Shown piece by piece: positions 10,215 to 28,909 of a stretch of DNA of 28,909 nt (position 1 is its first letter; each line of letters opens with the position of its first letter). The notes below the pieces were generated by a model. It was given only the letters and a program-made list of their open reading frames with translations, searched no databases and was not told where the DNA came from. A program made the translations under genes and the position numbers. Source of the stretch: a virus; the IMG/VR virus record IMGVR_UViG_3300032235_000051, positions 1 to 28,909 of that record; one strand, 5' to 3'.

Positions 10215-11018
10215 TTATCCTAACAAATCTTTGGCATTTTTATTTTTAACCTTTTGACCAGGTTTAATGCTTACAGTGGCAATGACATTCTTCTTACGTT
10301 GTGCGTCTGACAAGTATCCACGGTCACCACGCATTTTCCATAACCATTGTTGATCATTGTACAGCAAGGAAATAATATAGTGACCTGGTTCTTCTAATTC
10401 TGCAAGTACTACGCTAAGACCTTCAATTGACTGCCCCTGTGTCTTATATCTGTATTCGTAAAATTTACTAGCACGAACATTTTTAAAGTTTACTTTGAAT
10501 TCTTCATAGGTATCACGTACATTTTGATAGTGAGGATCATTTTCCCAAACACTAGATTCTAATCCTCTTTTCATATGGCGGAATGGACTATTAATATCTG
10601 ATCTAAACTTCATCCAATCTTGCTGTCCTGATTTCTTAACGGACAATGATATTCTAAGTTTTCTTTTATTTTTTTGAAGTTGTTCAACAGTGCTGTTATC
10701 AAATAAGTCTATTTTGATAAAGTCCCAGTTAGCAGGGATGTTAGGGTCTTGAATGAGATTCTTCAATGCCTCTGTCGCGGGCGCTGCAACAAACTCACCT
10801 GAATCACCTGACCCACCTGAACCTTTAGGTTCGCGCAGCGAAGAGCGAAGCGATCCACGAAGTGGGGCCACTTCCAAGGCGTAGCCTTCAGTTATTGGTT
10901 TGTTACGCTCAGGCGTACTAACATTAATATATTCGTTGTTATTCGTTGTTATTATGTTGTTATTGTTGTTAATAGTTGTACGGCCTAGACCATAAAAAAA
11001 ATCTGTAGATTCAGTCAT
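10215..11018 (-). CDS. Unknown DNA/RNA-related candidate protein with inserted palindromic repeat segment
   Basis: A 267-residue protein and the first gene of the small-gene cassette. I chose the ATG at 11018, preceded by AAGGATAACAAT, over a TTG at 11045. Three parts are visible. Residues 1-60 are low complexity and Asn-rich, encoded by short tandem repeats. Residues about 35-70 (GYALEVAPLRGSLRSS then REPKGSGG) are encoded by a GC-rich cluster of hairpins unlike the flanks. Residues about 80-267 form a basic, probably globular domain with many Lys, Arg, Trp and Tyr (KSGQQDWMKFRSDIN, DQQWLWKMRGDRGYLSDA). It could bind nucleic acid, for example as a single-strand binding protein, but I recognise no family. 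Confidence 0.65.
   Translation of the reverse strand: MTESTDFFYGLGRTTINNNNNIITTNNNEYINVSTPERNKPITEGYALEVAPLRGSLRSSLREPKGSGGSGDSGEFVAAPATEALKNLIQDPNIPANWDFIKIDLFDNSTVEQLQKNKRKLRISLSVKKSGQQDWMKFRSDINSPFRHMKRGLESSVWENDPHYQNVRDTYEEFKVNFKNVRASKFYEYRYKTQGQSIEGLSVVLAELEEPGHYIISLLYNDQQWLWKMRGDRGYLSDAQRKKNVIATVSIKPGQKVKNKNAKDLLG
10830..10917. repeat. Cluster of four GC-rich hairpins inside a coding region
   Basis: Four short inverted repeats lie within 88 bases: TTCGC-GCA-GCGAA (10830-10842), GAAGTGG-GG-CCACTTC (10859-10874), AAGGC-GTA-GCCTT (10876-10888) and TACGC-TCAG-GCGTA (10904-10917). The stretch is far richer in G+C than its AT-rich surroundings and keeps the reading frame of the 10215-11018 gene. 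Such in-frame palindromic elements resemble Rickettsia palindromic elements and cyanobacterial dispersed repeats. Only one copy is seen in this window. Confidence 0.7.
10921..10980. repeat. Short tandem repeats coding an Asn-rich tract
   Basis: Plus-strand units such as ATTCGTTGTT (two adjacent copies, 10931-10950) and further ATTGTTGTT-like units run through this region. On the coding strand they give an Asn-rich tract near the N-terminus of the 10215-11018 protein. Slippage could change its length without always breaking the frame, since several units are multiples of three. Confidence 0.6.
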
Positions 11019-11046
11019 ATTGTTATCCTTCTTAATGGCTGTCAAT

Positions 11047-11064: not shown

Positions 11065-11072
11065 TATTTATA
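11065..11072 (-). promoter_or_regulatory. TATAAATA late-type promoter motif
   Basis: A perfect minus-strand TATAAATA lies upstream of the small-gene cassette, after the terminator at 11113-11154. A host-type alternative is also present: TTGATT (11107-11112), 18 bases, TATATT (11083-11088). Either could start the unit that covers 11018 to 8052. Confidence 0.5.
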
Positions 11073-11112: not shown

Positions 11113-11154
11113 CCAAAAGAAAATCCCCAGGCCTCACCATAAAACCTGGGGATT
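11113..11154 (-). terminator. Rho-independent terminator
   Basis: On the minus strand AATCCCCAGG (11154-11145) pairs with CCTGGGGATT (11131-11122), a perfect 10-bp stem with a 13-nt loop, followed by TTTCTTTTGG. It ends the tail operon or the structured RNA at 11122-11268 and separates it from the next unit. Confidence 0.85.
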
Positions 11155-11268
11155 AATGAGTCTAAGAAGAGTGACGAGCTACAAAAATATCATTATTTCT
11201 TAGGATGACAGCCGTAAGAAAGAGTTTTGTTTTGGAGCAATCAGGAGATAACATTCATAGCCCGTCAC
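11122..11268 (-). ncRNA. Candidate structured RNA with own promoter motif and terminator
   Basis: The 120-base gap after the 11271-11570 gene folds strongly. GTGACGGGCTA (11268-11258) pairs with TAGCTCGTCAC (11181-11171), 11 pairs including one G-U. Inside is a 7-bp hairpin, TTTCTTA (11221-11215) with TAAGAAA (11202-11196). The terminator stem at 11122-11154 closes the 3' end. AATAAATA (11279-11272) lies such that a late-type start would fall near 11266, almost exactly at the 5' edge of the outer stem. The single-stranded part includes ATCTCCT (11249-11243), complementary to the common ribosome binding site AGGAGAT of this genome. It may be a small RNA or a structured 3' UTR. Confidence 0.5.
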
Positions 11269-11270
11269 GT

Positions 11271-11570
11271 TTATTTATTTTTCTTTATTTCTTCAGTGCT
11301 TAAAAAGCGTATTTCTTTGCAATCTAAACATCTTGCTCGCCATTGGTCTGGTACTACAAATGTTCTTTGATAAGTTTTCTTACCTGGTACATCTGTTAGT
11401 CCGCACCAACTGCATGTAGTATAACAAGTTTTGTGTTTGACCACAACAGGAAAAGCACCTTCAACATCACTTTGTTCAGCAATCTTAATACCTTGACCAG
11501 GAAGGTCAGTGGCACGAAACCAAGTTTCAGCAACTTCGTCTAGGATCTGTTCAAACTTGTCTTTCTGCAT
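11271..11570 (-). CDS. Zinc-ribbon-like small protein
   Basis: A 99-residue protein with two CxxC pairs, CSWC at 53-56 and CLDC at 81-84, separated by 24 residues, as in a zinc ribbon. An additional Cys lies at 49. The N-terminal 30 residues are helical and acidic, and the C-terminus is Lys-rich (EEIKKNK). No ribosome binding site is evident. CATAAATA (11580-11587) would start a transcript only a few bases before the ATG, so a leaderless mRNA is possible. Zinc ribbons of this size bind DNA, RNA or RNA polymerase in other phages. It is a candidate for a transcription factor, but without family recognition. Confidence 0.65.
   Translation of the reverse strand: MQKDKFEQILDEVAETWFRATDLPGQGIKIAEQSDVEGAFPVVVKHKTCYTTCSWCGLTDVPGKKTYQRTFVVPDQWRARCLDCKEIRFLSTEEIKKNK
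11272..11279 (-). promoter_or_regulatory. AATAAATA late-type promoter motif before the structured RNA
   Basis: Overlaps the last codons of the 11271-11570 gene. A start five to six bases downstream would fall near 11266, at the 5' arm of the outer RNA stem at 11258-11268. Confidence 0.45.
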
Positions 11571-11582
11571 AACAGCAGATAT

Positions 11583-11831
11583 TTATGGAGCAGCTGATAA
11601 TACCGTGGCAACAGCTGAGATTACAGCAACGATTACAGTGCCACAACAACCAATTAATATTTTCCAAATGTCATTGCGACTTTGCAACACAGTTTCTCTA
11701 AGATCATCAATTTTAGTTTCTACAGATGAAATCCTACGTTCTAGGTCACCATAACGTTGCGCACATAGTTTAACATGCAAATCTAAGTCATTAGATTCTT
11801 GTTCAAATGTTTGTACGCTAAAATTAGACAT
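11583..11831 (-). CDS. XhlA-like coiled-coil membrane protein, possible holin partner
   Basis: An 82-residue protein. Residues 17-52 form a coiled coil (RYGDLERRISSVETKIDD) and residues about 56-80 form one hydrophobic helix (WKILIGCCGTVIVAVISAV). This is the layout of haemolysin XhlA-type proteins that act with holins. The start at 11831 overlaps the stop of the upstream gene as TAATG. A longer reading from 11882 would run inside that gene. With the protein at 487-687 it is one of two lysis candidates. Confidence 0.7.
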   Translation of the reverse strand: MSNFSVQTFEQESNDLDLHVKLCAQRYGDLERRISSVETKIDDLRETVLQSRNDIWKILIGCCGTVIVAVISAVATVLSAAP

Positions 11832-28148: not shown

Positions 28149-28175
28149 TGACCCGTGTTATTTCAGTGTTATAAT
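28148..28175 (+). promoter_or_regulatory. Possible antisense sigma70 promoter under the terL stop
   Basis: Plus-strand TTGACC (28148-28153), 16 bases, TATAAT (28170-28175). It would transcribe towards the terL coding region in antisense. The -10 box includes the terL stop codon, so chance is a real option. Confidence 0.3.
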
Positions 28176-28909
28176 GCAGTTGCTACTTGGTGACCCCAAC
28201 GACGAGGCTGTTCAATGTGAGCAGTGTCGCGTCTGATTGGGAACATAAAGTCCACCATGTAACCCAAAGCATCCATCATATGATCATAACCTGAATCTTT
28301 GTCTGGTTGGCTAGTGCCTTCCTTGTAACTGTGTCTTTCAAGGCCCTCAATTGTGTGTTTGCACTTAGACGATAAAAACAAATGTCTAGTGCCTTGGCCG
28401 TCACATAGTCTACTATTGACAGCATTAATTCTATCCCTTACTGGGGTATGGCTTCTTGGTGCCTTGACAACAAAGCCAGCATTTTGTAATATAGTAATGT
28501 CTGTTTTGCCGCCAGCACTGGTCTTGCGTTGATGTCCTGCAGGATCAGGATAGATCCATATCTTGCTTTTTGGATATCTAGATTTAAGTTCATCTACCAA
28601 TTCATGTGTGTCAGACCCGTATATTCTGATCTCATCTATAACAACCAAATTATCGCCATGACGCACTGCAATAACAGCAGACATAGGATCAACGTTGAAG
28701 TCACAGCCAACATAAATGACATCTGTTTGATAGTCTTTGACATCAATGACATTTTCTCTTCTATCAAAGCTGTAGTAGATTCTGCCTGCAAAAGTTTCAA
28801 AGCTAGCAAGGAATTCTTGTCTAAAGGTTCTTTCATCTAGGTCCCTTCGTGCTTGTTCTATTTCTTCTAAAGGAACCCTACCACCATCTAATGTAGTAAA
28901 CTGCCACGA
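28169..28909 (-). CDS. terL: Terminase large subunit, C-terminal nuclease half (enters at window end)
   Basis: A 246-residue open frame from the window edge. It begins SWQFTTLDGGRVPLEEIEQA and carries DLDERTFRQEFLASFETF, the usual link to the nuclease. RNase H-like acidic positions are seen in YVGCDFNVDPMSAVIA, in IYPDPAGHQRKTSAGG and in SGYDHMMDALGYMVDF (the DHxxDAxxY end motif). With the 165 residues at the other end, the protein would be about 412-415 residues, normal for this family. It ends 60 nt before the portal gene. Confidence 0.93.
   Translation of the reverse strand, partial: SWQFTTLDGGRVPLEEIEQARRDLDERTFRQEFLASFETFAGRIYYSFDRRENVIDVKDYQTDVIYVGCDFNVDPMSAVIAVRHGDNLVVIDEIRIYGSDTHELVDELKSRYPKSKIWIYPDPAGHQRKTSAGGKTDITILQNAGFVVKAPRSHTPVRDRINAVNSRLCDGQGTRHLFLSSKCKHTIEGLERHSYKEGTSQPDKDSGYDHMMDALGYMVDFMFPIRRDTAHIEQPRRWGHQVATAL

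Follow-up and report, generated by a model that had tools for sequence, protein, structure and literature searches.

What does the gap between two operons encode in an uncultivated phage, and on what would its product act? The window, that is the whole stretch of DNA analysed (viral record IMGVR_UViG_3300032235_000051, 28,909 bases), comes from a siphophage and all of its recognised genes run in the direction of the minus strand. A first-pass annotation had placed a discrete RNA, about 145 nt long, in the gap behind the tail operon and had considered a trans-acting translational regulator or a ribosome decoy as its role. Antisense RNAs have been described for a small number of model phages, the majority of which are temperate and infect enteric bacteria.

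The large terminase gene lies at both ends of the record (3-497 and 28169-28909) and, since it is split over them, a circularly permuted and nearly complete genome is probable. By terminase the closest named relatives are the lake Phage DSL-LC06 and the Pelagibacter phages HTVC112P, 026P, 111P and 202P, at ~54% identity. The phage collection searched held no close relative of the window, genome contigs searched with the terminase gave distant relatives only and no host, DNA searches for homologues of the window RNA gave none, and single window proteins were mostly without success as queries for relatives. The lineage is widespread, uncultivated and aquatic and is distantly related to the Pelagibacter siphophages; gene starts in the relatives are the output of a simple caller.

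A structured RNA behind a zinc-ribbon gene

The RNA would occupy ~154 nt of the minus strand (11115-11268, with its exact ends predicted) and folds at -49.0 kcal/mol against -30.2 +/- 3.6 kcal/mol for shuffled sequences (z -5.2; reached by 0/200 shuffles). All the elements described in the first-pass annotation were recovered on this strand. The outer stem pairs 11268-11258 (5' arm GUGACGGGCUA) with 11181-11171 (3' arm UAGCUCGUCAC) in 11 pairs including one G-U, and its score as the best outer stem stands at z 6.7 against shuffles. Within it lies the inner 7-bp hairpin (11196-11221, loop CGGCUGUCAUCC), in which UUUCUUA at 11221-11215 pairs with UAAGAAA at 11202-11196, and behind it an intrinsic terminator hairpin (11122-11154) with a T-rich tail running on to about 11115. 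The stem begins right behind the stop codon of a 99-aa zinc-ribbon-like ORF (11271-11570, minus strand). The gap stands at the end of the tail operon, but the gene directly preceding it is this ORF and not a tail gene.

The CxxC...CxxC of the zinc-ribbon protein is conserved in 11 homologues, and a model of the protein (mean pLDDT 74) gave no informative match when compared with PDB. A TAAATA lies upstream of its start at 11580-11585 (minus strand), and in relatives the same word is often found 10 nt before the zinc-ribbon ATG. The start region is without a clear Shine-Dalgarno both in the window (11570-11600) and in relatives; because of this and of the TAAATA shortly before the ATG, the mRNA may be leaderless or near-leaderless. 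In several relatives the zinc-ribbon start is inside a hairpin.

Covariation and extent of the family

A structural pattern, consisting of a perfect stem, 9 pairs or longer, around about 60-140 nt followed by a terminator, was scanned over 905 kb and gave seven matches. The window and the relatives L044, L045 and L010 account for four of these, and in all four a homologue of the zinc-ribbon gene stands immediately before the RNA. A profile of the zinc-ribbon protein was found in 18/34 related records. The family was then collected by reading downstream of zinc-ribbon stop codons, which yielded 19 distinct RNAs, the window included, the 18 others being in phages of the same lineage. Each has the zinc-ribbon gene upstream and they follow a common plan of an outer stem, two or three inner hairpins, a terminator and a new leader.

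Covariation was assessed in a MAFFT alignment of ten relatives from which the window was left out. The outer stem was paired in 99% of cells, with double changes at 7/10 pairs, and the structure taken as a whole scored 0.561 for covariation, where shuffles gave 0.234 +/- 0.028 (0/500) and slid versions of the structure no more than 0.138. The outer stem thus covaries in related phages rather than failing to do so, and the proposal of a discrete RNA with promoter, closed stem and terminator is strengthened by it. A covariance model built from the ten relatives without the window found its best window match at 11274-11117 on the correct strand, with 22.3 bits and an E of 0.016, a value that is roughly calibrated; on this match the window RNA is judged a diverged member of the family. 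G002 (L106), which was not used for training either, is found by the same model at E 9e-8. Behind its first outer stem the RNA of this phage has another domain (CGTCCGT...ACGGAC, loop GGCTGTCAC) and may be a two-domain version. The model also matched, at E 9e-4, a terminator and a hairpin with loop TTTTGCCCATT at L007:910-1058; this match follows a different late gene and was not counted as a member, being perhaps a second site or chance. DSL-LC06 was examined and was without the RNA.

Strict linkage of the RNA to the zinc-ribbon gene, together with a GCCAU loop that was invariant in 10/10, would be in keeping with loops that bind a phage protein, for instance the adjoining zinc-ribbon protein, or RNA polymerase. 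We regard this as very improbable, for in one relative (L011) a homologue of the protein is encoded but no RNA follows it, the predicted protein structure was uninformative as noted above, and complementarity to the next leader, described below, is not something that protein binding predicts.

The TAAATA word and a putative promoter

In the window a TAAATA (11272-11277, minus strand) overlaps the stop codon of the zinc-ribbon ORF and stands 3 nt before the stem. The word precedes the outer stem by 3-7 nt in 17/19 members, and in the remaining two (L010 and L085) lies 5-6 nt before an extra first hairpin, so that its position 3-7 nt before the first stem is common to all 19. Across 14 genomes the density of TAAATA on the coding strand was 2.6/kb between genes and 0.14/kb inside them, a difference of about 19 times, and the window has 13 copies on its coding strand and a single one on the opposite strand (examples on the minus strand are 28146, 26105, 11585, 11277, 11070, 9524, 8044 and 6798). 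A similar bias was seen in DSL-LC06, which is without the RNA. Because of its position and its enrichment between genes TAAATA is most simply read as a promoter word used throughout the lineage, and the placing of the RNA start at the outer stem by a late-type motif, as originally proposed for the window, is well supported by the family. The next operon has its own copy (TATAAATA, 11065-11072, minus strand), and TAAATA precedes the next leader in all 17 phages with a co-directional neighbour. A sigma-70-like TTGATT-18-TGCTATATT is also found before the next operon (11112-11083, minus strand); before the RNA a host sigma-70 promoter was sought and no good match was obtained. As the RNA and the target leader have TAAATA in common, expression of both during one phase is probable, and the idea of a late RNA that shuts off an early gene is unsupported.

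The core motif TATAAATA is also that of T4-type late promoters, and it lies, as there, a few nt upstream of the predicted starts and is enriched between genes, whereas here it sits in siphophages of about 29 kb.

A positioned promoter motif bears on a further explanation, in which the structure is simply the 3' end of the zinc-ribbon mRNA, serving as terminator and stability element with no regulation in trans. The RNA does stand at the zinc-ribbon stop codon with a terminator at its end, and as a separate RNA it is predicted from sequence, but the motif found before the stem in 19/19 members, the conserved loop sequence and a phage-specific complementarity to the next leader all argue the other way and make this explanation improbable.

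Complementarity to the leader of the next operon

In the window the 5' arm and loop of a hairpin, UCUUUCUU-ACGGCUGUCA (11206-11223, minus strand), are complementary to the leader letters UGACAGCCAUUAAGAAGGA of the next operon (11044-11026). The predicted site, TGACAGCCATTAAGAAGGA (11026-11044, minus strand), covers the Shine-Dalgarno of the ORF starting with the ATG at 11018, and in the predicted duplex the RNA loop letters GGCUGUCA are matched by leader letters UGACAGCC. This ORF (10215-11018, minus strand), the predicted target, has homologues in L012 and L044 and had no match in PHROG or Pfam. When the RNA was compared with the 46 gene starts of the window its own leader ranked first, scoring 30.0 where the mean was 17.9 (z 4.0), the duplex itself being of moderate significance (p 0.006-0.022). 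A ranking of the duplex within the genome by duplexfold alone was dropped, as it favours long gapped duplexes. In the free RNA the loop is unpaired from C11211 onwards, with probabilities of 0.87-0.95, but both Gs and the arm are engaged in pairs, so that pairing with the leader would be expected to begin in the loop and then to open the hairpin. The strongest member is L104, whose RNA has 14 perfect nt against its neighbour's SD-to-AUG.

The window statistics being moderate, the argument is carried by the family. The interior of each RNA was compared with the 170 nt behind its own terminator in the 17 phages with co-directional neighbours; in two others (L101 and L107) a convergent gene lies behind the RNA and there is hence no adjacent target. 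The complementarity had been noticed before testing, and the test took in all members, failures included. Own-leader complementarity averaged 28.4 against 22.3 +/- 1.1 for permuted pairings and was equalled in 0/50,000 permutations, which count related phages as independent. Without L104 the test gave p 2e-4, and the result was not weakened by dropping L104 and one of each of two close pairs. The excess of own over other leaders was 6.4 for the real RNAs and 0.36 +/- 0.69 for shuffled ones, and neither of two controls, reverse-complemented leaders and the zinc gene's own start region, showed an excess. Ranked among all gene starts of the same record the own leader came first in 6/17 phages, the window among them (combined p 5e-4), whereas in L106, L089, L110, L102 and L082 it was without excess over gene starts.

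Pairing with other gene starts

The annotation had pointed to an exposed ATCTCCT as complement of the AGGAGAT found before several genes. The anti-Shine-Dalgarno-like AUCUCCU is present at 11249-11243 (minus strand), although it is only its CUCCU part that is mostly unpaired (probabilities of 0.56-0.99), the first two letters being paired. AGGAGAT was located before all four of the genes named (25301, 8012, 6758 and 9499) and in addition before 16986, and UAUCUCCU of the window RNA is complementary to AGGAGATA before three genes. Gene starts of the window with at least 8 nt of complementarity numbered 8 compared with 3.3 for shuffles (p 0.019), but the mean fit of the RNA to all window gene starts was not raised (z 0.5). 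The main predicted target is the leader of the next operon and not the genes with AGGAGAT; anti-SD pairing with many starts is weakly supported and possible as a secondary role. For a ribosome decoy nothing in the analysis spoke.

A more general form of this idea is that the RNA pairs, through loops with GYCAU (against AUGRC) and UCUCC (against the SD), with the starts of many phage or host mRNAs and not mainly with its neighbour. GYCAU loops occur in 18/19 members where about four would be expected, CTCC or TCTTCC in 13/19, gene starts pair better with the real than with shuffled RNAs (combined z 3.6), and the best matches in L101 and L044 are starts of the SD plus AUGCC type. However, over the family the excess of gene starts over coding windows reaches z 1.6 only, and the phage-specific match to the adjacent leader is left unexplained. 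We consider it unlikely.

Comparison with known RNAs

Searches of Rfam at gathering thresholds returned no family in the window or in four relatives, and the 6S covariance models no match in the window at the same threshold. In 15 relatives, searched up to E 1, there was none except Polynucleobacter-1 and a sub-threshold Trp_leader, whose matches of 25-31 bits are under the 41-bit cut-off and were judged to be chance. No tRNA or tmRNA was found in nine relatives. Kissing loops of GGCAU with GCCAU inside the RNA fit some members only.

The Polynucleobacter-1 RNA (RF01718) was identified at L096:2223-2355 (E 7e-14), the same as L130:1719-1851, and in L096, the one relative concerned, it is in the leader just downstream of the family RNA. 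It is a separate and already described RNA and not that of the window. Letters that look alike (AAGGTTGGCGGGCC...) are found downstream of the RNA in L045, L010, L110, L105, L088, L102 and L085. The presence of this RNA or its look-alikes in leaders of relatives hints at Burkholderiales hosts and at a phage origin for the RF01718 family.

The closest parallel is the c4 antisense RNA of P1 and P7 (Citron and Schuster 1990, as cited in PMC2864571), in which the ribosome binding site of the ant mRNA is believed to be blocked by complementary stretches situated in loops (PMC12197685). Like c4 (RF01695), the RNA here is a small structured phage RNA just upstream of its predicted target and not overlapping it, with complementary loop stretches and a ribosome binding site as target (PMC12197685); unpaired segments complementary to the downstream neighbour's predicted ribosome binding site were found. 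It differs in having its own putative promoter and terminator, in standing behind a zinc-ribbon gene and in a target with a separate promoter, and the phages are unrelated; the target ORF, with no match in PHROG or Pfam, is not known to be an antirepressor. A shared, processed transcript, as for c4, is not indicated, a terminator and a separate TAAATA promoter lying between RNA and target, though read-through is possible. Because of these elements, and as the RF01695 covariance model was not matched in the Rfam searches of window and relatives, the RNA appears most like c4 in its working without being a c4 member on the tests made, and is read as a new family that would work like phage c4 RNA.

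The OOP RNA of lambda and the sar RNA of P22 are encoded opposite their targets and are hence perfectly complementary to them. They too are phage antisense RNAs acting on phage mRNA, lowering its translation or stability (PMC12197685), whereas here the complementary stretches are short and come from genes lying side by side without overlap. The open literature on pelagiphage non-coding RNAs and on sRNAs of late phage operons gave nothing relevant when searched, most subscription papers being outside its scope.

Proposed mechanism and implications

The reading we favour, at a probability of about two in three, is that of a small antisense RNA with its own promoter and terminator that represses translation of the next operon in the manner of c4. 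Structure, covariation, promoter position and phage-specific complementarity are computed from sequence; transcription, duplex formation, repression as the direction of the effect, and its timing are inferred. Transcription of the RNA would begin at its own TAAATA promoter, of phage type, and stop at the intrinsic terminator, and the closed outer stem would hold a multiloop displaying short unpaired segments. Pairing would start in the hairpin loop and then open the hairpin, with the arm helping, and loop and arm together would base-pair with the mRNA leader of the next operon and cover the ribosome binding site, so that translation of the first gene falls. RNA and target are non-overlapping neighbours, would be driven by the same promoter class, and have letters that change together between phages. 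The suggestion of a trans-acting translational regulator is in this form still the best reading, trans-acting or adjacent-acting, but with the next operon's leader as main target, reached through loop and arm. A further proposal, which we hold to be doubtful, is that of a cassette, in which the zinc-ribbon protein is a dedicated partner in RNA pairing while the RNA is adjusted, phage by phage, to whichever gene adjoins it; if this were true, the target would change while the device stays.

A covarying family of phage RNAs with its own putative promoter, and with evidence of coevolution between RNA and target, would add to the known phage antisense RNAs, and the predicted target is suited to simple reporters. 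The occurrence of a T4-late-like word in small siphophages may moreover make their gene control readable from sequence.
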